Positions 44,691-55,787 of a stretch of DNA of 64,000 nucleotides are shown piece after piece (position 1 is the first letter of the stretch; each line of letters opens with the position of its first letter). A program made the position numbers and the translations under genes. The DNA comes from Streptomyces sp. ISL-10 (GTDB lineage: Bacteria; Actinomycetota; Actinomycetes; Streptomycetales; Streptomycetaceae). A model generated the notes under the pieces. The model had not been told where the DNA came from, did no database searches, and saw only the letters and a list, made by a program, of their open reading frames with translations. The stretch is taken from NCBI RefSeq assembly GCF_018614575.1, contig NZ_JAGGOJ010000003.1:744001-808000 (forward strand), written 5' to 3'.

Positions 44691-44839
44691 GCGGTCCATT
44701 ACTTTTCCCCGAGGGGCCATTCGCGTGATTCCGCGCAGGTCCCGTGGTGCGAGAACTCCGAGGGCCGGAGCTGTATTTCGGCTTAGTGTGGTTATAGGTT
44801 CGTCGCGTATCGGGGGACAGGTTGCTACGTTGTGCCGTC

Positions 44840-46114
44840 ATGAACCTGCGAAGATTCTCGCACCCTTGGGATCTGTCGAGAGCCAGAGCCGTCGTCATCG
44901 CCGTAGCGGCGATCGCTTTCGTCGCGAAGATGGCACTGGCGGCGAGCACCCGCGGTCCGGTCGACGTGCGGTATTTCGAGAGCTTTTCCCAGGCTGTGGC
45001 CCAGTACGGCACCCTGTACATCTACGAGCAGGCGCTCGGCGACCTGCCGGTATACAATCATCCGCCGCTGACCAGTTGGATGCTCCTCGGCCTCCGTGAA
45101 ATCGCCGCATGGGGAATCCCGTTCAGCACGCTCATCAGAACGCCGGCATGTCTGGCCGATTTCGTCACCTGCATTCTGGTCTTCGAGATCCTGCGCCGTC
45201 GCACCTCGCTGTGCACCGCCGTGCTCTGTGCCGTCGGCGCGGCGCTGTGTCCCCTGCTCGTGGCCACCTCCGGGTACCACGGCAACACTGACACGATCGC
45301 CGTGATGTTTGCCTTCGCCGCGGCGCACCTGCTCCTGGATCGCGCGAGCCCCGCCCTGGCGGGCTGCGCCGTCGTCCTGTCGTTCAGCGTCAAACTCCCC
45401 CCGGTCGTGGCCGTGCCGCTGTTCTTCCTCGCGGCCTGGCGCCTCGGCGGACGAGCGGCGCTGCTCCGGTTCGGCGCCGCCTTCACCGCACTGGTCCTTG
45501 CGGTCTGGGGGCCGGTCCTCGTGACCGTACCCGGCCCGCTGAGAGAGAACGTCCTGGAATACGGCGGCGGCCACTGGCGGATGTGGGGGCTGATCCGGTT
45601 CGCCGAATGGGCCCGGGTGCCGGAGCCCGTCATCGCCTTCGCCCAAGGGGATGGTCATTTCCTGTTCGTCCTCGTCTGCGCCGCCACCGGAATGTGGCTC
45701 GTGTGGCGGCGTCCCGCTGCCCTGCACATCGTGCTCGCCACGACGCTGGGACTGCTGCTGCTGCTCAGCACCGCGTCGGGTCTGCAGTACCTCGCCTGGC
45801 CCGCCGCCGGGCTGTTCGTCATCGGCCTGCGGGAGGGGCTGTCCTACGGCGTCGTCAGCGGCGCCCTCGCCGCCCCCCTCTACGCGTTCACGACCGGGGG
45901 CCTCTTCTACTCCGCGATGCTGGCGGTCGGCATCGCCGCATGGCTGGTCCTCGCCTTCGGCGTCCTCTCCGGCATCCGCGCCGTCCTCGGCGCGGCCGCG
46001 CCCGATACCGGTCTCCCGGCCGGCGGCATTCGGCGCGCCGGGACACAGTCCGCCTTCGCCGCGGCCCGGCCCGGCACCTCGACCCCCGCGAGCAAGAGTG
46101 GAGAAGCCACGTGA
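44840..46114 (+). CDS. GT-C type membrane glycosyltransferase
   Basis: A 424-residue polytopic protein with about ten hydrophobic helices. The first luminal loop has VDVRYFESFSQAVAQYG followed by LPVYNHPPLTSWML, the pattern of GT87/GT39-like transferases that use polyprenyl-phosphate sugars. It should work outside the membrane. ATG 44840 has no Shine-Dalgarno, and TTG 44822 in frame is possible. The stop overlaps the next start (GTGA), and the third gene is an SMR-like flippase, so the three form an operon for making, flipping and using a lipid-linked sugar. Confidence 0.85.
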   Translation: MNLRRFSHPWDLSRARAVVIAVAAIAFVAKMALAASTRGPVDVRYFESFSQAVAQYGTLYIYEQALGDLPVYNHPPLTSWMLLGLREIAAWGIPFSTLIRTPACLADFVTCILVFEILRRRTSLCTAVLCAVGAALCPLLVATSGYHGNTDTIAVMFAFAAAHLLLDRASPALAGCAVVLSFSVKLPPVVAVPLFFLAAWRLGGRAALLRFGAAFTALVLAVWGPVLVTVPGPLRENVLEYGGGHWRMWGLIRFAEWARVPEPVIAFAQGDGHFLFVLVCAATGMWLVWRRPAALHIVLATTLGLLLLLSTASGLQYLAWPAAGLFVIGLREGLSYGVVSGALAAPLYAFTTGGLFYSAMLAVGIAAWLVLAFGVLSGIRAVLGAAAPDTGLPAGGIRRAGTQSAFAAARPGTSTPASKSGEAT

Positions 46115-47640
46115 CGGAAGGTCAGCGTCCCAGAATCGGCATCCTCGTGGTGGCGTACAACGCGGAATCGACGCTGGAGCGGACACTCGACCGCATTCCG
46201 GCGGACTTCCGTTCCCGGATCGCCGAGATCCTCATCCTCGACGACGCCAGCCACGACGCCACCTTCACCGCCGGATGCCGCTGGTCGCAGTTGGACGGCA
46301 GGCCGCCGACCGTCGTCATGCGGCACACCAAGAACCTCGGGTACGGCGGAAACCAGAAAGCCGGATACGCCCTCGCGGTAGAACGCGGACTGGACATCGT
46401 CGCACTGTTGCACGGGGACGGCCAGTACGCCCCGGAATTTCTGCCACAGATGGTCGAACCGCTGGAACGCGGCGAATGCGATGCCGTGTTCGGCTCCCGC
46501 ATGATGAATCCCAGGGATGCCCTCACCGGCGGAATGCCCCCTTACAAGTGGATCGGCAACCGGATCCTGACCCATGTCGAGAACAACCTGCTCGGCTCGG
46601 AACTCACCGAATTCCATTCCGGCTATCGCGCCTACAGCGTCGATGCCCTGTGCAAGATCCCCTTCGAGCGCAATACGGACGGCTTCGACTTCGACACCCA
46701 GATCATCGTCCAGCTCCTCGACGCCGGAATGCGGATCAAGGAAATTCCGATCCCCACCTACTACGGCGACGAGATCTGCTATGTCAACGGCATGCGCTAT
46801 GCCAAGGACGTCGTCAAGGACGTCCTCGCCTACCGCCTCGCGGTCAAGGGATTCGGCACCTGCGACTGGATCCCCAAGCCCGTCGAATACTCCTTCAAGG
46901 AGGGCGACGGCTCGTCGCACTCCGTCATCCTCGACATGATGCGCGGAATGCCGCCGGGCCGCGTTCTGGACCTGGGATGCTCGGGCGGACTGTTCGCCGA
47001 GCGCCTCGAAGCCCTCGGTCACGAGGTGACCGGCGTGGACTGCGTCGAGGTGCCGGGGGTGCGTGATCGGTGCTCGCAGTTCCACCTGGCTGACCTGGAG
47101 GAGGGTCTTCCGGAGGGCATCGGCGACCGGTACGACTACGTGGTCGCCGCGGACGTCGTCGAACACCTCTCCCGCCCCGAGCGGATCCTCACCCAGCTGC
47201 CCGCGATCCTGCGCCCGGACGGCCGCGTCCTGCTCTCCGTACCGAACTTCGGACACTGGTACTCGCGGCTGCGGGTCGCGCTCGGGATCTTCGATTACGA
47301 CCGCCGCGGCATCCTCGACGAGACGCACCTGCGATTCTTCAGCCGGGCCAGCCTGCGCCGCACCGTCCGCTCCGCCGGCTTCGACGTCTTGTCGATCGCT
47401 GCGACCGGCGCTCCCTTCTGGTCGGTGCTGGATGGGCACCCCGCCGCGAAGTCGCTCGGCGGCCTGTCGCGGCTGCTGACCCGGATCAGGCCGACCGTCT
47501 TCGGCTACCAGTACGTCGCACTGCTCACCCCGCATGCGGCGCAGACGATCGTCGCTGGGGAGCACATCCATGTCCAGGACATCCTCAACCGCCAGCTCGT
47601 CCCGAGGGACGAGCACGCTTCCGACCGCAGGCGCGTCTGA
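46111..47640 (+). CDS. Fusion of GT2 glycosyltransferase and SAM methyltransferase
   Basis: A 509-residue two-domain protein. Residues about 8-245: a GT-A fold of dolichol-phosphate-mannose-synthase type (ILVVAYNAESTLERTL, LDDASHDAT, LHGDGQYAPEF with the metal Asp, then FHSGYRAYS). Residues about 275-480: a class I methyltransferase (VLDLGCSGGLFAERL, VTGVDC, DYVVAADVVEHLSRPERIL). Such fusions could transfer a sugar to polyprenyl phosphate and methylate the glycan, but that is inference. GTG 46111 overlaps the upstream stop. No membrane helices are seen. Confidence 0.92.
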   Translation: MTEGQRPRIGILVVAYNAESTLERTLDRIPADFRSRIAEILILDDASHDATFTAGCRWSQLDGRPPTVVMRHTKNLGYGGNQKAGYALAVERGLDIVALLHGDGQYAPEFLPQMVEPLERGECDAVFGSRMMNPRDALTGGMPPYKWIGNRILTHVENNLLGSELTEFHSGYRAYSVDALCKIPFERNTDGFDFDTQIIVQLLDAGMRIKEIPIPTYYGDEICYVNGMRYAKDVVKDVLAYRLAVKGFGTCDWIPKPVEYSFKEGDGSSHSVILDMMRGMPPGRVLDLGCSGGLFAERLEALGHEVTGVDCVEVPGVRDRCSQFHLADLEEGLPEGIGDRYDYVVAADVVEHLSRPERILTQLPAILRPDGRVLLSVPNFGHWYSRLRVALGIFDYDRRGILDETHLRFFSRASLRRTVRSAGFDVLSIAATGAPFWSVLDGHPAAKSLGGLSRLLTRIRPTVFGYQYVALLTPHAAQTIVAGEHIHVQDILNRQLVPRDEHASDRRRV

Positions 47641-47674
47641 CGGCGTTCCCGCGCAAGTCGGCAGGAGACGGAAC

Positions 47675-48049
47675 GTGACCCTCCCCAGTCTGATGCTGCT
47701 GCTGTTCGCGGTGTTCTCCGCCGCGGCCGGCCAGGTCATGCTCAAGCACGGTATGCGGGCGGCGGCTCTCGCCGCCGAGCGGGATGGCGGCTCACTCGCC
47801 ACGCGCGCCGTCACGAGTCCCTGGGTGGTGCTCGGCCTGGTCGTGTTCGCGGTGTCCGCGGTCGCATGGCTGTCGACTCTCGCCCGGGTCCCACTGAGCG
47901 TCGCCTACCCCTTCAACGCCCTCGGCTATCTGCTGATCGTGCTGGCCAGTTCGACGCTGCTGCACGAGCGGACCTCGCTCTGGACCTGGGTCGGCTCACT
48001 ATTGGTGGTGACCGGTCTGCTGACCGTCTTCGCAGGCCAGAGCGGCTGA
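47675..48049 (+). CDS. SMR/EamA-like four-helix transporter (ArnE/F-like)
   Basis: A 124-residue protein with four hydrophobic helices (LMLLLFAVFSAAAGQVMLKH; then WVVLGLVVFAVSAVAWLSTL; then VAYPFNALGYLLIVLASSTL; then WVGSLLVVTGLLTVFAG). The AAGQVMLKHG and LSVAYPFNALGY motifs fit the EmrE/ArnE-ArnF family. Next to a GT2 and a GT-C transferase, the likely job is flipping a polyprenyl-phosphate-linked sugar. AGGAG lies seven bases before GTG 47675. Confidence 0.88.
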   Translation: MTLPSLMLLLFAVFSAAAGQVMLKHGMRAAALAAERDGGSLATRAVTSPWVVLGLVVFAVSAVAWLSTLARVPLSVAYPFNALGYLLIVLASSTLLHERTSLWTWVGSLLVVTGLLTVFAGQSG

Positions 48050-48218: not shown

Positions 48219-48940
48219 ATGCCCGCGATATCGCTCCGCAAGATGGCAGAGAGAGCTCCCGGCCACCGTCCCCCTCTACAAGAGCGCCGGGGTCTCGCTC
48301 CGGAAACGCGGCCTCGACGGCTGGCGCGCCGCCGTCTACCTCGTCGTGGACTACTCCGGCTCGATGAAGCCCTATTACAAGGACGGCAGCGGCCAGGCGC
48401 TCGCCGAACGGGTCCTGGGACTCGCCGCCCACCTCGACGACGACGGCACGTGCCGGCGGTCTTCTTCTCCACGGACGTCGACGCCGCCACCGACTTCTCC
48501 CTGGACGACCGCCGCGACCGCCGCGACCGGGGCGACCGCAGTGTGGCCAGCCTCGGGCATATGGGCAGGACCAGTCACCACCTCGCCATGGACGCGGTCA
48601 TGACCACTACCTGGACAGCGGTGCCACCGCACTCGCGCTCGTCGTCTTCCAGACCGACGGCGGCCCCATCAACCGGCTCGCCGCGGAACGCCACCTCTGC
48701 GAGGCCGCGAAACTCCCGCCGTTCTGGCAGTTCATCGGCTTCGGCGATGCCACGAGCAAGCAGTTCGACTTCTTCCGCCGCCTCGACACCCTCGCCGTGA
48801 TCGGCGAGCGCCCGGTGGACAACGCGGGCTTCCTCCACGCCGGTGCAGACCCGCGCCGCCTCCCGGACGCCGAGCGCTAGACCGGCTGGTCGCGGAGTTC
48901 CCGGCCTGGCTGACGGCGGGCCCGGGCGGCGGGGATCACG
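48219..48940 (+). pseudogene. VWA-domain protein, multiply frameshifted
   Basis: Fragments in successive frames read as one protein: VPLYKSAGVSLRKRGLDGWR and AAVYLVVDYSGSMKPYYKDG (the MIDAS DxSGS), then PAVFFSTDVDAATDFSLDD, then GHMGRTSHHLAMDAV, then ALALVVFQTDGGPINRLAAE and FWQFIGFGDATSKQFDF, ending ERPVDNAGFLHAGADPRRLP. This resembles VWA proteins of tellurite-resistance/stress operons. At least four frameshifts break it. Confidence 0.85.
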
Positions 48941-49044
48941 GCGGGGCAGGGACGGTCACGGCTTCACCGAGCCGATGGTGCTCCTCAACGAACTCGCCCA
49001 GGAGCTGCGCCCGATGGAGGAGGGCCCGCCTGGTTCACCGGTCA

Positions 49045-49322: not shown

Positions 49323-49739
49323 GTGAAGTCCATCGCGAGGGGGCGAGGCATGAGGGGCGCGAGTGCCGCAAGACATCAAGGGCATGCTGGCACATTCGTT
49401 GCGCATCAGGGCCCGCTCCGAGGAGAACTGGCGGGCCGGCTCCGGGGCGATCCGCAAGATCCTTCATCGCTCCCGGCCGACCACCGCCTGCGCATCAGGG
49501 GACGCGCCAGACGTGTTGTACATCCCTGGGCCGAGTTCGGTCGCGGAGAGCGCCGTCGTGTGCGCGACGTACGCCCGGCGGCACATCGGGCGGTGTATGG
49601 GCCGCGGGCCGCGGTGGACAAGACGATCAAGGGGGCGCGCGCGGATGCATCCGTGAGCGCGTTGCGGGAGGCAGAGTTGCCTGTCAGGCTGAGTGCGGTC
49701 GCTGGTGAGTGCGGCCGTACCGCTACGGGGGACAGGACG
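49323..49739. other. Gap before the STAND NTPase gene
   Basis: About 400 bases. A frame continuous with the STAND gene is open throughout but lacks family character until ATG 49740. A second plus-strand frame (49363-49656) is open too, with no recognisable domain. Nothing else supported. Confidence 0.3.
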
Positions 49740-52118
49740 ATGCAACCGCGAAGAAGTGCTCTGCTCGGGGCCGTCACGGCTGGAGCGGCTGCGGCGGTGA
49801 GCATTCTACTCGGGCCCGTCACCAACTACGCCAGTGCGACGGTCCCGGCCTGGGCCCGCAACCCGGGCGTCGTCTGGGCGGTCTTCGTTCTCCTTGCCAC
49901 CTTCAGCGTCGGGCTCCTCCTGCTGAGCCGCCGCCTCGACCAGACGTCCGGCGCGGTCGGTGCTCCCCGCGGGGTGGACTCGGTGACCGGCACGACGCTC
50001 AGCACCGTGCGGGCCACCTCCTTACGGCCGCCGCACGTCGATCTTCCGCTGGTGCGCGGGCGCGCATCCGAACTCGAGCGGTTGTCGGCACTGCTGACCC
50101 GGCCCCCGGACGGTTTCGCAGTGGTGTGCGGAGCCGGAGGTTTCGGCAAGACGACACTGGCAGCGGCGCTGGCCAAGCAGGCGGAGAAGGACGGGTTCAC
50201 CGTCTTCTGGATCCGCTGGCAGGACAGGGACTCCTTCGTCCTGCAGATGACACAGGTCGCCGTCGCGTGCGGACTGACCGAGGCGGAGCTGCAGGATGCC
50301 CGGACCGAGCTCGTCCCGCTGCCCGATGTCGTCTGGTGCCGCCTGGGCAGCGTGCGCAACTGGCTTCTGGTCATCGACAACGTGGATCTGGCCGACCAGC
50401 TCAGCCTCGATCAGGGTGCCACCGGTGACTACCGGGGATGGGTGCGGCCCGAGGGGAACGGCCTGCTGCTTCTCACGAGCCGGGATACCAGCCGGGAGAC
50501 TTGGGGCCCGCGGGCGCATATCGTCGAACTCTCCTCGCTAGACACCCGGGCGGGTGCTCAGGTCCTCTGCGACGCGGCACCTCAGGCAGGTTCACCTGAG
50601 GACGCGGAGAAGCTGTCGGAGCGGCTCGGCGGCCTGCCGCTGGCGCTCCGCTCGGCCGCTGCCTATCTCTCCAGGCCGAGCAGCCGCTATCGGTCATTCA
50701 ACGACTACCGCAGCGCCCTCGACCATGAGCTTCCCGCGCTGATGGGCGCAACGGGACCTGTGCAGCGGGACTCCGACGCGCGTCAAGTGGTGAGGCACAC
50801 CTGGGAGTTGTCGCTCGACCAGTTGGAAAGCTCGGGCTATCCGGTGGCGCGTCCCTTGATGCGCATGCTGGCCCTTGCAGCGGACGCGCCGATTCCACGC
50901 GAGTGGATGACGGTCGGCATGCTCAGGTCGGTCACGGGCCTGCGCGTCCGAGGACGGGACGTGGAGGCCGCGCTGTTGGGACTGCACCAGTACGGCCTCC
51001 TCGCGTTCAGCGACGGGACACGGCGAGCGCAGGCTGGTGCTCTGCAGATCCACTCTCTCGTACGTGAGATCAACGAGCTCCTCCTCGGCACGACGGCGGG
51101 GGTCGATCCGAGGCTCTGGCAGCGTGCGGCGCTGTTGCGCACCACTGAGCTGGCTGAGCGGATCACGACGGACAGCGTCGACTGGCCGCTGGCCCGCACG
51201 CTGGCGCCGCATGTGGAGTTGCTGCTCCGCCCGGGGGCTCCAGCACCTGCGGACAGGGTCGACAATGCCAGGAGCCGGATCCTGAAGAGCCTCTTCGCGG
51301 CAGGGGAGTATGCGCTCGCCGCCTCCTTGGCCAGGGCGGCGTACGAAGCCGACGTAGCGACGTTCGGAATGGACCACATCCGCACGGACAAGAGGCGGCA
51401 CGCTCTCGCCGCGGCGCTCAATCATCTGGGCCTGCACGCCGAAGCCGTCGAACTCCTGCGCCAGACCCTCGCACACCGCGGCCGCGCGCTGGGAGAGGCG
51501 CACTACTTCACCTTGCAGACCAAGATCAGTCTGGGGATGGCGCTCAGCCATCTCGGACAGCACCACGAGGCCATAGCTCTGCTGCGGGAGACGGTCGACC
51601 AACGTGCGCACATCCTGGGACCGAACCACTCCCTGACGCTTGTCAGCAGCAACAGTCTGGCCAACGCACTTAACGGTGCGGGCCGCTACGCCGAGGCCGC
51701 ACAGATCCACCGGCAGACGTTCGAGGTGCGGCTCGCCGCATTCGATCCCGACCATGCGTCGGTCCTGCAGAGCAAGAACAACCTGGCCAGTGCCCTCGAC
51801 GGGATGGGGCAGTACAACGAGGCAGCCGCGATGTTCCGCGAGACGCTGCGGCAGCGTGAAAGTGTCCTCGGCCCCGACCATCCACGCACCCTCGACACTC
51901 GTCAGAACCTTGCCCGTGCCCTCTTCCACCTGGGACAGCAAGCCGAACCTGCCGCCCTGCTGCGGCAGACCCTGGAAGGGCGTGAGCGTGCCTTCGGTCC
52001 CGACCACACAGCGACGCTCGCGACACGCGAATTCCTCGCGACGGTCGAGTCCGGCCCTACGTTAGGCGTCTTCCGAAGGTGGCGACGACGACCGGACCGC
52101 GCGACGCCCAATCCATGA
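49740..52118 (+). CDS. Membrane-anchored STAND NTPase with TPR repeats
   Basis: A 792-residue protein. Two N-terminal hydrophobic helices (about 8-26 and 43-62) anchor it. The NB-ARC-like ATPase follows: Walker A GAGGFGKTT 131-139, Walker B WLLVIDNVD 208-216, LLLLTSRD and GLPLAL at 298-303. Then a winged-helix-like region (about 345-450) and five or so kinesin-light-chain type TPRs of 42 residues (about 545-770; each with LG-DHP-TL). STAND proteins switch on ligand binding and oligomerise; in bacteria they serve regulation or phage defence. Leu95 is a TTA codon (50022-50024), implying bldA-dependent translation. It is flanked on both sides by broken recombinases. Confidence 0.9.
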   Translation: MQPRRSALLGAVTAGAAAAVSILLGPVTNYASATVPAWARNPGVVWAVFVLLATFSVGLLLLSRRLDQTSGAVGAPRGVDSVTGTTLSTVRATSLRPPHVDLPLVRGRASELERLSALLTRPPDGFAVVCGAGGFGKTTLAAALAKQAEKDGFTVFWIRWQDRDSFVLQMTQVAVACGLTEAELQDARTELVPLPDVVWCRLGSVRNWLLVIDNVDLADQLSLDQGATGDYRGWVRPEGNGLLLLTSRDTSRETWGPRAHIVELSSLDTRAGAQVLCDAAPQAGSPEDAEKLSERLGGLPLALRSAAAYLSRPSSRYRSFNDYRSALDHELPALMGATGPVQRDSDARQVVRHTWELSLDQLESSGYPVARPLMRMLALAADAPIPREWMTVGMLRSVTGLRVRGRDVEAALLGLHQYGLLAFSDGTRRAQAGALQIHSLVREINELLLGTTAGVDPRLWQRAALLRTTELAERITTDSVDWPLARTLAPHVELLLRPGAPAPADRVDNARSRILKSLFAAGEYALAASLARAAYEADVATFGMDHIRTDKRRHALAAALNHLGLHAEAVELLRQTLAHRGRALGEAHYFTLQTKISLGMALSHLGQHHEAIALLRETVDQRAHILGPNHSLTLVSSNSLANALNGAGRYAEAAQIHRQTFEVRLAAFDPDHASVLQSKNNLASALDGMGQYNEAAAMFRETLRQRESVLGPDHPRTLDTRQNLARALFHLGQQAEPAALLRQTLEGRERAFGPDHTATLATREFLATVESGPTLGVFRRWRRRPDRATPNP

Positions 52119-52185: not shown

Positions 52186-54590
52186 TCACAGCATTTCGTC
52201 GGTGGCCCGGAGACCAGGCATGCCGAGATTGACCGGCGCAATGTGAGCCAGCCGCTGGCTCTCTTCGCGTTTCTGACCGAGGAAGGCGAGGGTGAGCTCG
52301 ATGCCCTCGATCTCTCCGAGCCAGCCCTCCTGCTCGGCACGGGCCCGGCGGGCCACGAGATCGGTCTCAATCTCGTCGAGGCGAGGCAACATGTTGGGGT
52401 TGATGTTGAGCATGGGACATCGCAAACAAGCGTGTTCATGCTGGCAAGGGGTGCTGTAGGGCCGAGCGCACCCGCCCAGCTCAACCTTTCGGTGGTCGAA
52501 GTGCTCTTCAAACCCGAGCCACTCGGTGTCAGTGACCGGACGGTACTCACCTGTGGGGCGAGCCTGCCGGCGCCGGTCGAGAAAGCCCTGATAGTGGCGG
52601 ACGACGTCTTCGTTGAACACAGCGACGTAGCCACGAGTTGTTTGCACATTCAAGTGGCCGAGTAGGGCAGCGCCGATGTGGATTGGGAGACCATGGTTCA
52701 CCAGGTCCGTGGCGAGGAGTCGACGGAAGTCATGCGGGGTGAAGTCGGCGGCGTGGAAGGCGGGCTGGTGTTCCGCGAGCTCGTCGCAACGTCGTTTGAG
52801 CATGTTGACTACGGTGGTGTCGGAGATGACCTCGTGGTTCGTGCCGATCCGTCGTTGGAACAGGAACGGCATGGGTGCGCTGCTGCGGCGCTCGTGAGGG
52901 TCGTAGCGTGGCAGCAGTGGGATCGTGCGGCCGTCCCGCGTGTGGCGCCGGATGATGGACGCGATGACACCGAACAGTTCCGCGGACATGGGGATGAGGC
53001 GTTCCCGGTCACTTTTGGATGGAGCGACCACGAGTAGGGCAATGACTTCCCCGCCTGGCCGTTGGTATTGGCGGATGCTGAGGTGGGTGAGTTCGAGTGC
53101 CTCTTCGATGCGGACGCCCGAGTGACGGAGAACTTCGACGATCGCCCACTCCCAGAAAGCGACGTCCTCGGCTGCCGTGACGTTGATGGACTTACCGCTG
53201 ATTTGGTCGCGGACACGAACGTTCGCGTTTCCTCCGAGCCTGACGCGTCGTTCATCAGCCCGGCTCCACAGCCTCTGGTAGATACGGCCGTCGAGGGCGA
53301 TGGTCGCTCCGCCGGCAGCGTCAGCGGCTTGTTCCAAGAGCGCGTGGAGGTGGCTGTACCGGTACTCCATGTGCTCCACGAGGGTGCTCAGCAGGGGTTG
53401 ACGTCGCCGGGTGCGATCATCCATACGCTCCTTGACTCGCTTCCGTAGCCGCGGACGTCCGTGTCGGAGATGGGGCAGGGAGCGACCAGACCGCCCACTG
53501 CTCGGGCTCTGCGGCGGCCCAGGCTTGCAGATCGGTGTAGAACGCCCGGACTGCCCTCAAGATCGGATCGAAGTCGCGCGCGCCCTTGCCGTCGGAGCGC
53601 ACCGCCACCCGATCGCGCCATCGTTGGTAGAGCTCGCTGTCCAACCGCAGGTCTGGTTGGTCGGGTGCGAGATCTTCAATCGTGGACCAGAAGTGGCTGG
53701 CGAGGTGCCGGGAGAGACTGTCCAGCGTCGAGTAGTCCAGCTCGGGCTTGCGCCGGTCCAGGTAAGCGGTGAGCAACTGCCGGACGCCGGCGTGCCGGAT
53801 CTCGTAGCGGTCGACCATCTCCTCGCACCGTCAGCCGTCCCGTCAGCAACGCAGCCTTCAGCGTCGCGGGCCCGTGAGAGGGGAAGTGGCCCATCTCATG
53901 GAGCACTTGCCAGGCGAGGTGTCCAGGGAACCGGCCTCCGGCGCCGCGTTGGCCGAGCACCAGCCCCTTGCGGCGGCACTCCCACGCGTAGTGCAGGAAT
54001 GCCGACGGCGTTAGGTCTCCCAGCGCGATGCCTTGGGTGGTGAGGGCCACGGTGACGTCGAACAGTGCGACGCCATGGTGGACCGGGTTCACCGGTTTGT
54101 CGTGGACTGCGGCCCAGAATTTGTCGAGCAGCGGGTCGTTCTGGGCGGTCAGGAAGCGCTGGCCGTAGTACAAGAACGTATTCGAGCGAAAGGCTTCAAG
54201 GGACGGCTGGATGACCCGCAGGCAGAACAGGCAGGCCGTGCCCACCCCGATCTGGCTCTTCTCCTTGCGTGTCGATTGCAGATCGGCGACAGGGCGCCCG
54301 CGCTCGTTGAAGCCGCTGGCGTCCCACCGCTGCTGCCAACTGTCGCCGGGGAAGGCTCTTAGATGCCGGAGGAGGTCTCGGGCGCCGCGGCTTCGGCGCC
54401 AACGATTATCCGCCGAGTTCGTCGGCCACGTCGCGCGTATCGCCGCAGCTACTTCCTCTATGGAGGCGCAAGAGAGATCACCTTGAGGTCGTGGAGGAAA
54501 GGCCGGGTCCGGTGCCGGGGCCGCGTTCAGGCTGACGAAGCGGCTGCCTCCCTTCTTGCTCTGACGGAGCGCGGAGCCGGGCTCAGCCAC
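52186..54590 (-). pseudogene. Large tyrosine recombinase split by frameshifts
   Basis: Three minus-strand frames align end to end as one protein of about 800 residues. Piece 1 (from GTG 54590 to about 53826): GDLSCASIEEVAAAIRATWP, then TACLFCLRVIQPSLEAFRSN, to LLTGRLTV. Piece 2 (53818 to about 53500): MVDRYEIRHAGVRQLLTAYL, then EPEQWAVW. Piece 3 (52186-53424, 412 codons, intact): catalytic Arg in RHSGVRIEEAL, HDFRRL, LLGHLNVQTT and Tyr in RGYVAVF, then a Cys/His cluster (CARPYSTPCQHEHACLRCPM). Joining them needs an indel near 53826 and two more near 53500 and 53440. Piece 3 alone keeps the catalytic residues but not the DNA-binding half. Confidence 0.85.
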
Positions 54591-55787
54591 CGAACACCGT
54601 CTTGATGTCGTCGGGGTTGTAACCGGTGGCGTAGGTGCGCTGCGGGGCGGGGCCGCGTGTAGTGCTCTTGCAGCTTGTCGTGCATGTCTTCAACCCGCGC
54701 GGTCAGGTAGCGGCCTGTCGTGTCGAGATGCGCGTGCCGCAAGATCGTCTGTACCTCGGCGAGGGTGAGCCGGTCGTCCCCGGCCATCCGAGTCGCGGCT
54801 GTGTGCCTGGCGTCGTGCAGGCTCCAGTTCGTGCCAAGCTTGGCGTTGGCCCGCTGGAGGATGCGCCGCATCGCCCAGTAGGTCAAAGGTCGAGACTCAC
54901 CACGGCGGGTACGCCATACTGGCTGGTCTGGCGTCGGCAATCCGTCGGTGGCGAGGTAGCTGCCGAGATAGCGGAAGGCGTTCGGGGACGCCGGCACGGC
55001 TTGACGGATACGTGTGCCTTTGCTGATCACATAGATGAGCTGCCCCAGCCAGTCAACATCGCCAAGACCCACCGCCAGCAGCTCGCTCGCCCTGGCCCCG
55101 GAAGAGACGTAGAACTCCAGCAGAGCACGGTCGCGGTCACAGCCCATCGTGGCGAATAGTTCATCCCACAGGTGATCCGGGATCGCCCGCGGAGCCTGGA
55201 CAGGCACCTTCTGCCGCAGCCGGCCCCGGCGGAAAGGCGGAGTCGGCTCCAGCGGGGAGCTGATGTGCGAGCGCTTGCCTGCGCTCTCTCGACGCCGGAA
55301 CCGGATTGGTCACCGGGCCGACGCCGAAGCGGGCGTGAAAGGCGTAGAAGCCACTGATCACAGTCAGGTAATGGTTGATCGTTCTGGGCGCGTAGTCCTC
55401 CCGCAGCGACGGTTTCCCGGTCTTCACGTTCACCGACCCCGGCGGCGGCGAGCCGTTCCGCTTACGGAGCCGCTGTGGGTTACGGGCTTCTCTCAGCCAG
55501 CAGACAAGCAGCGCGATCTCGGCCTCGGTGGCAATCTCCCACGACGTCTGCAAGATCCACAGCAGCCGGTGGTACCGCAACAGGTCATACCCGTAGCTCC
55601 GGCACGTCAGCGGACTGACGTCCCCCAGCATCAAGTCCCGCAAGTAGACGCTGACTGGCTCAACCTCCCTGCCGTCACCGTCCACCACGACGAACGGAAG
55701 GTGAGGCGAGGCCCCCGTGACCACCGTGCCAACCTCTGGAACCGAGTGCTTTCCCTCCATCAGGGCACGTCTCACGTCTTCCACCAC
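54583..55787 (-). pseudogene. Second tyrosine recombinase, frameshifted
   Basis: The N-terminal core-binding part (55787 to about 55260) includes PLTCRSYGYDLLRYHRLLWI and YAPRTINHYLTVISGFYAFH. The catalytic part (about 55260-54640) has SGARASELLAVG (Arg), HDARHTAAT, LRHAHLDTTGRYL (His, Tyr). One indel near 55260 separates them, and a second near 54640 changes the end, which in another frame reads QRTYATGYNPDDIKTVFGG. That restored stop (54583) overlaps the GTG start of the next recombinase, so the two were an operon. Confidence 0.85.

Follow-up and report, generated by a model that had tools for sequence, protein, structure and literature searches.

A STAND ATPase of Streptomyces sp. ISL-10 with TPRs and a predicted N-terminal membrane hairpin shared with HaaT

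In the window, the 64,000-nucleotide stretch of Streptomyces sp. ISL-10 analysed here (contig NZ_JAGGOJ010000003.1, positions 744,001 to 808,000), the gene at 49740..52118 on the + strand encodes a STAND/NB-ARC ATPase of 792 amino acids with an N-terminal membrane hairpin and C-terminal TPRs; the protein probably works at the membrane in response to a partner that it senses. The reading we favour, tentatively and with somewhat less than an even chance of being right, is a solitary membrane-tethered switch of NLR type in which a ligand bound to the TPRs would lead to clustered hairpins giving a membrane output. The gene is no chance reading frame, as close relatives exist and purifying selection acts on it, and together with its relatives it is an orphan without a conserved partner gene.

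Reading frame, domains and predicted fold

According to the ORF list and the translation the frame is open over 792 amino acids plus stop. The same frame is open further 5' and would give 931 amino acids if started from a GTG; we prefer the start at 49740 because hydropathy and alignment indicate that relatives share it. The domain order is hairpin, linker, SLRPPH junction, P-loop ATPase, a helical and winged-helix part and TPRs to about residue 770, with all coordinates on the + strand. In agreement with the initial annotation, which had proposed two N-terminal membrane helices, hydropathy places predicted transmembrane helices at residues 7-25 (49758..49814) and 44-62 (49869..49925); the AlphaFold model also has the second and gives the first as a helix of residues 4-28 at low pLDDT. 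The short segment between them (residues 26-43, 49815..49868, from the alignment of hairpins) contains GPVTNYAS with the VTN core, and a variable linker leads from helix 2 to the SLRPPH junction with the ATPase (residues 94-99, 50019..50036; S94 and P98 invariant). Codon 95, the leucine of this junction, is the in-frame TTA at 50022-50024 that had been pointed out before; a second in-frame TTA, codon 775 at 52062-52064, had been missed.

Walker A GAGGFGKTT (residues 131-139, 50130..50156) and Walker B WLLVIDNVD (residues 208-216, 50361..50387) were placed by alignment, and G133, G134, G136, K137, T138 and T139 of the former and V211, D213 and D216 of the latter are invariant in A1, an alignment of 23 sequences that includes L067 and L068. 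Further on lie GGLPLAL (residues 297-303, 50628..50648; G297, L299, P300, L301 and L303 invariant), presumably the motif of AP-ATPases, and a winged-helix region (residues 381-450, 50880..51089, approximate bounds set by eye) with the near-invariant H438, L440 and R442, which we take to be the MHD-like position. The TPR array, kinesin-light-chain-like by Pfam and structural matches, covers residues 541-770 (51360..52049, bounds likewise approximate and set by eye). Pfam cut-offs are passed by AAA_16 (34.1 bits, cut-off 32.6) and NB-ARC (23.8, cut-off 23.5), and TPR_12 matches five stretches with 142.5 bits. The previously claimed NB-ARC-like switch with intact Walker motifs and the TPRs as domains are thus borne out, and a receptor-like STAND switch is well supported by Pfam, the invariant motifs and the fold matches.

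An AlphaFold model of the 792-aa protein reached a mean pLDDT of 80.4 and a pTM of 0.71, with the hairpin at a pLDDT of 41-70, for which reason the structure of the hairpin is not taken as established. The best Foldseek match was 6mfv, a STAND-TPR protein. Plant and animal NLRs carry an N-terminal CARD or coiled coil and use LRR or WD40 as sensor. Realignment of model residues 93 to about 490 gave Z 24.3 for CED-4 (4m9s_B, rmsd 3.9, 329 aligned), Z 24.1 for NRC4 (9cc9_G, rmsd 3.6, 331 aligned) and Z 24.3 for a wheat resistosome (9h2l_A, rmsd 4.0, 336 aligned), and the modelled ATPase has an NB-ARC fold by its Z of about 24 to CED-4 and NRC4. The likeness to CED-4 and the NRC resistosomes extends over the NB-ARC, helical and winged-helix fold (about 330 residues), whereas the window protein is bacterial, with the hairpin in place of the CARD or coiled coil and the TPRs in place of LRR or WD40. 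The modelled TPRs match structures of kinesin light chain, APPBP2 and Rap/NprR; the entry titles name bound peptides for KLC1 (cargo peptides), APPBP2 (degron) and Rap (pheromones).

The VTN hairpin and its STAND chassis

V27, T28, N29 and P36 are invariant in 17 chosen hairpins from two STAND families. Within the window family V27, T28 and N29 are nearly invariant (at least 90%) in 21 hairpins, L048 and L050 being without VTN, and the core is absent from four family members, L048-L051. Profile A2 was built from the 21 rows of the window family only, and the combined profile A3 from the 17 rows, which were chosen for VTN with HaaT included and L048-L051 excluded, so HaaT scores under A3 are high by construction; independent evidence for the shared hairpin comes from the A2 search, BLASTP and hhalign. 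Weaker A2 matches (to about 1e-5) were read in 24 genomes. In 21 of them the match is the N-terminus of a protein from a second STAND family, about 925 residues long and with the hairpin motif GLVTN, and in three it is a truncated or broken hairpin of window-family type; nine further places had matches as well. Comparison of the two hairpin alignments by hhalign gave a probability of 97.3 (E 2.7e-11), and when the full-length window and HaaT proteins were compared by BLASTP, the hairpin scored best of all segments (E 0.004) and the ATPases did not match significantly.

The second family is HaaT, the TPR protein of cyclophane-containing RiPP biosynthesis (NF041717), as L126 scores 1559 bits on this model (cut-off 1125); among the NCBIfam matches of the window protein at E 0.01 the model is absent. 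Both proteins have the N-terminal VTN hairpin and the STAND and TPR layout, whereas HaaT has another ATPase and other TPRs, without a significant BLASTP match outside the hairpin, and its gene adjoins radical SAM and GNAT genes and a precursor-like ORF, none of which accompany the window gene. Radical SAM and GNAT genes follow the STAND gene in 18 of the 20 HaaT loci, and tblastn over these loci finds the radical SAM in 18 and the GNAT in 19. An NCBIfam scan of L126 (STAND), L121 (radical SAM) and L140 (GNAT) assigned the radical SAM to the FxsB family (434 bits vs 370) and the GNAT to HaaN (292 bits vs 250). A small ORF that ends in H-x-A-S-L-I plus a few residues lies just 3' of the HaaT gene in 17 of 18 loci scanned, the exception being L138; L151, HaaT-type with a short frame, is excluded from the set of 20, and the short frames L122 and L124 were kept for codon counts and not scanned for this pattern. 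In the 45 window-family loci (including L067-L072, L145 and L168-L170, some of them short with 7-11 kb) tblastn found neither the radical SAM nor the GNAT partner, the 18 and 19 of 20 HaaT loci serving as control. Among the open-access papers listed by literature searches, none had the VTN hairpin or HaaT in its title or abstract opening.

The remainder of the window protein resembles a third family. Residues 107-769, with ATPase and TPRs, align to NCBIfam NF040586 (FxsT, FxSxx-COOH system TPR protein) with 280.9 bits (E 2.6e-83), and since the equivalog cut-off is 300 bits we call the protein FxsT-like and not FxsT; all 23 A1 sequences match this model. Apart from the score, it differs from FxsT by the hairpin, which lies outside the matched part, and by having no linked FxsB gene. 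Its own genome holds no FxsB radical SAM gene over the cut-off (one weak match, 27.3 bits), and a search there for an FxSxx-COOH precursor gave no match, with the positive controls equally silent. FxsT and HaaT, the nearest named families, are annotated as components of RiPP systems and not as killers.

Homologous ATPase-TPR bodies, 27-35% identical over the matched part, carry other N-termini, among them a short segment resembling GQGRVFQTGGDQYIEEHHHH and a helix of the form GAELxTQTAAAAAGTM. The segment gives the impression of the amyloid signalling motifs that bacterial NLRs are described to have in PMC12261475, and AP-ATPase-TPR proteins with an N-terminal TIR domain figure among the FxSxx systems of Kaur et al. 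(PMC7159879). Because homologous bodies and FxSxx proteins differ at this end, it is the N-terminus that is exchanged, as happens in NLRs, and this speaks for an output function of the hairpin. The idea that the membrane segment itself may act, raised in the initial annotation, thereby gains some support at the sequence level, from the hairpin common to two STAND families and the differing N-termini of homologous bodies, but the rate at which the hairpin changes suits an anchor. The gene is under purifying selection, with dN/dS of 0.11-0.35 over five domains in comparison with L040 and L041, and diversifying selection in the TPRs, considered as well, was not seen in a domain-wise comparison of relatives. 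Hairpin vs ATPase identity is 82% vs 94% for L040 and 75% vs 85% for L046/L055, and the corresponding dN/dS is 0.35 vs 0.25 (L040) and 0.78 vs 0.45 (L046/L060); between the window protein and L046, about 45% identical overall, hairpin and ATPase are both at 54% and the TPRs at 44%. This faster change among close relatives would suit a plain anchor, and together with the four members without VTN it takes weight from a membrane output and adds it to a role as a peptide factor.

Distribution, gene surroundings and TTA codons

Matches at E 1e-60 occur in 70 of 392 Streptomyces genomes (own included), and 24 of the 72 places listed start within the first ten residues, the rest later, mostly at the ATPase. 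Strong A2 matches (E at most 1e-20) number 23 among 391 Streptomyces genomes, and A3 matches were found in 49 of 353. A whole-family draw gave A2 matches in 15 of 394 genomes from two genera and a class-wide draw A3 matches in 6 of 394, all Streptomyces (own genome included in both draws); the hairpin beyond Streptomyces is from Actinokineospora (L043). The closest relatives are those of S. indiaensis (L040, 91% identical), L041 (77%) and L042 (65%). Plasmids contribute 161 records with any match, 22 of them with a single place that spans 80% or more of the query, and in the three that were opened, all linear Streptomyces plasmids, the copies bear the hairpin and have genes for replication, partition or mobilisation around them. 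Where the contig reaches about 7 Mb or more, 10 of 15 members (G593, the broken L145, among them) lie within 15% of the contig end (p 0.004 vs 30%, relatedness ignored); for HaaT this holds for 3 of 13. A swap of the C-terminal sensor, considered for the many relatives matched only over about residues 2-503, was rejected, as full proteins align through the TPRs with different copy number and large gaps.

The window gene has a glycan gene cluster on one side and decayed sequence on the other. On its 5' side a 670-bp remnant (48273-48942) is 81% identical to a gene open in L195, which we take to be of von Willebrand type, and another of about 70 bp (49589-49659) corresponds to the terminal part of a gene that L191, L193 and L194 have as an open frame. 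Recombinase genes, among which the gene had been said to lie, are present, but they occupy one flank only (52186-55787, minus strand), with the remnants and then the glycan gene cluster upstream. They comprise, according to the ORF list and Pfam, an open RitC-like tyrosine recombinase of 412 amino acids (52186..53424), which is a neighbour outside the switch gene, and a RitA-like tyrosine recombinase split over two frames (54527..55787), and between them a RitB-like position (53417..54590), also split over two frames, without Pfam match and with an 8-bp overlap with the RitC-like gene. These three tandem genes resemble the recombinase trio of RIT elements as described in PMC3414803, in a decayed form with two genes split over frames in this assembly and the middle one without Pfam match. 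Comparable recombinases were found near only 2 of the 45 loci, the window and L060, and we rejected the idea that they had carried the gene; around the plasmid copy closest to the RitC-like gene (94%) no TPR/STAND gene is annotated within 7 kb. An empty-site comparison was also set aside: L171 and L172 also have the unit at 44.8-48.05 kb, with nearly the same end point, but none of the window's genes beyond it follows there, so the site is not clean. Rfam gave no match at gathering score over 44-58 kb of the window.

Comparison of the window with 40 loci (26 other hairpin-bearing relatives, one further a duplicate) gave 41 sets of surroundings in which, the STAND cluster aside, no neighbour family occurs in more than five; the earlier statement that no linked effector is seen is well supported by this comparison. 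Shared blocks are confined to the near-identical pairs L040/L044, L048/L049, L050/L051 and L064/L065 and to one block of three genes common to L056 and another part of the ISL-10 genome.

For the TTA codons 35 family members, window included, were counted; L048-L051 were kept although without VTN. Outside this count lie L044, which duplicates the record of L040; L067-L072, which have no hairpin of VTN type; the truncated or broken frames L145, L150 and L152; the truncated L103; and L168-L170 from plasmids, none of which has TTA. Of the 33 rows with leucine at the SLRPP position, 14 encode it by TTA, and every other TTA column is filled by one or two rows. The 14 rows fall into two distant clades: one is formed by the window and L040, and the other, which has 15 rows and is about 45% identical to the window, supplies the remaining 12. 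The nearer relatives L041 and L042 are without it, and four changes are required on a quick tree. Where the window gene and the 15-row clade share a residue, codon identity is about 0.4, so the junction TTA was either kept for long or gained twice. As 2 of 114 leucine codons of the window gene are TTA, two independent origins would fall on the same position by chance in about 2% of cases. HaaT has recurrent TTA codons at two columns elsewhere, in 8 of 17 and 7 of 19 rows with leucine.

This recurrence in two clades is suggestive of bldA control and no proof of it. TTA occurs in 24 of 35 genes of the window family and 16 of 20 of HaaT vs 20 of 545 neighbour genes (3 of 59 with at least 500 aa), the latter taken from a gene-calling script that relies on GC and has a preference for biased genes. 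We rejected this enrichment as proof, since the relaxed codon bias explains much of it and retention within the clade is ordinary: TTG makes up 398 of 4101 leucine codons in the window family and 666 of 15827 in neighbours, the codon bias of HaaT is likewise relaxed, and the ratio of TTA/(TTA+TTG) to CTA/CTN, worked by hand, is 2.6 for the window family, 3.8 for neighbours and 5.4 for HaaT. The TTA column of the 15-row clade has 12 TTA, 2 TTG and 1 CTA, a retention of 0.80 vs a mean of 0.75 for 11 TTG columns. The adpA gene is described with a TTA likewise between two domains (PMC4255298). PMC10327506 lists 11 conserved TTA codons from 213 Streptomyces genomes, and the junction TTA is not one of them, the comparison being of nucleotide positions and not of genes. 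Two patterns for the UUA tRNA, a bldA-like sequence and a looser form of it, both used without positive control, had no match in the own genome, a result that carries no weight either way. The bldA control proposed for this gene therefore keeps its footing in the recurrence at the junction and loses much of the enrichment to codon bias; we regard such gating as plausible, if still somewhat short of an even bet.

A proposed switch and competing explanations

In the favoured reading, the hairpin would insert into the membrane with both ends inside, as its charges suggest, leaving ATPase and TPRs in the cytoplasm, where the TPR superhelix may bind a protein or peptide ligand. Candidate triggers are proteins of phages or plasmids, modified peptides and kin signals. 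Binding would release an ADP-locked state by nucleotide exchange, after which ATP-bound subunits would assemble into oligomers by way of the NB-ARC domain. Clustering of the hairpins might then give a membrane output, most probably growth arrest by a pore or by depolarisation, with developmental gating possibly added through the TTA codons. A precedent for the layout is Cap1, in which a soluble sensor is joined to two TM helices and which, gated by cA4, is described to open a pore and depolarise the cell (PMC12642688); an output through two TM helices is thus feasible, although Cap1 is not a relative, its sensor being a CARF-like cyclic nucleotide sensor and not STAND, and the resemblance is one of layout only.

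Because the hairpin links the protein to HaaT, a peptide ligand has to be taken seriously as an alternative to phage defence. Like HaaT or FxsT, the protein could serve, tethered to the membrane, in the assembly or sensing of a modified peptide, with the RiPP coming from elsewhere in the cell or from neighbours and the hairpin serving for localisation only. The FxsT score, the match of all aligned sequences to that model, the hairpin held in common with HaaT next to its radical SAM, GNAT and precursor-like genes, and the faster hairpin change that suits an anchor all point this way, but the 45 window-family loci without radical SAM or GNAT gene and a genome without FxsB match over the cut-off speak against it, and we consider this role somewhat unlikely. 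An abortive-infection receptor against phages or plasmids, as the initial annotation had in mind, would agree with the receptor-like architecture and with the patchy occurrence in chromosome arms (the 10 of 15 places above) and on plasmids. The context gives no support: PADLOC models, which cover Avs and other known STAND defence proteins, matched the window protein with none of their families at E 0.01, and among 126 neighbours (up to three genes either side in 23 family loci, 138 being possible, with the window's own neighbours excluded) at E up to 1e-10 the 25 listed of 51 PADLOC families have at most three proteins each, mostly of PD-T4-6 models, and show no defence cluster; the gene surroundings compared above contain no conserved partner gene either. 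Pfam finds three protein kinases among these neighbours, in line with the PD-T4-6 matches, and, within 25 listed of 150 families, three integrases and transposase families with two to three proteins each. No relative was found in viral_contigs with the two patterns used, and in the phages collection the matches did not go beyond TPR level, all of them in three records of Wolbachia phage WO. Relatives in conserved non-island contexts, named earlier as a point against phage defence, are not seen for the window family, whose neighbours are unconserved, but are for HaaT with its conserved gene set. A role in phage defence is unproven and not supported by context, and we judge it unlikely.

The initial annotation had also offered developmental signalling. 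An AfsR-like protein of developmental or antibiotic regulation gated by bldA would fit the recurring TTA codons and the match of the HaaT L126 ATPase-TPR part to the AfsR model (333 bits, below the cut-off of 1430); as the Pfam matches of the window protein contain no DNA-binding domain, the occurrence is patchy (the 23 strong hairpin matches in 391 Streptomyces genomes) and neighbours are unconserved, it appears very improbable. A bolder idea extends the membrane switch favoured here: the VTN hairpin might be an undescribed membrane effector module that was fitted at least twice to different STAND chassis, once in the HaaT cyclophane system and once in a free, mobile single-gene system, both held by TTA to the developmental phase in which the UUA tRNA is present, so that the window protein would be a gated membrane-killing receptor for immunity or kin recognition. 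We offer this as speculation that is quite unlikely to hold in full.

The window protein brings together three things that are usually kept separate, namely bacterial NLR-like switches, RiPP-associated TPR proteins such as FxsT and HaaT, and a possible gating by bldA. With its short membrane module it also provides a handle on what proteins of the FxsT and HaaT type do.

Genes flanking the STAND gene

Two gene remnants lie directly upstream of the STAND gene. One (48273-48942) comes from a von Willebrand-type gene, of which the locus L195 holds an open copy; the other (49589-49659) is a piece from the end of a different conserved gene, with open copies in the loci L191, L193 and L194. Also upstream, a three-gene glycan unit (44822-48049) encodes a membrane protein, a GT2-methyltransferase fusion and a small EamA-like protein, and it recurs in L171 and, as a second copy, within the same genome (L172), with about 80% DNA identity across its last two genes. 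Downstream, on the minus strand, follow three tandem recombinase genes (52186-55787), which resemble a RIT element, a set of three adjacent overlapping tyrosine recombinase genes. Two of the three are broken across frames in this assembly, and genes similar to these recombinases are also found near the relative in L060.

HaaT gene sets sharing the hairpin

HaaT (NF041717), the second STAND family with the VTN hairpin, was found in gene sets (L121-L140, e.g. L126:4324-7095 and downstream) composed of the hairpin STAND gene, a small precursor-like ORF, a radical SAM gene and a GNAT gene. The ORF ends in H-x-A-S-L-I plus a few residues, and in the scanned examples the radical SAM protein belongs to the FxsB family and the GNAT is HaaN. 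Among 20 HaaT rows, TTA recurs at two columns, in 8 rows at one and in 7 at the other. The L126 hairpin (residues 8-68) gave a weak match, under the cut-off, to the Pfam model for actinobacterial holin-X (E 0.0026), a likeness that may reflect mere general membrane similarity.

Duplicated matches and other N-termini

In genome G464 from the family-wide hairpin-profile search, two hairpin STAND matches (C1:158275 and 9989001) probably sit within long terminal inverted repeats, as they have equal scores, lie about 158 kb from either contig end and are oppositely oriented. Other STAND homologues of the window protein (L075, L076, L174, L175, L177-L180 and L182) have at their N-terminus a short motif resembling GQGRVFQTGGDQYIEEHHHHY, which may be one for amyloid signalling.
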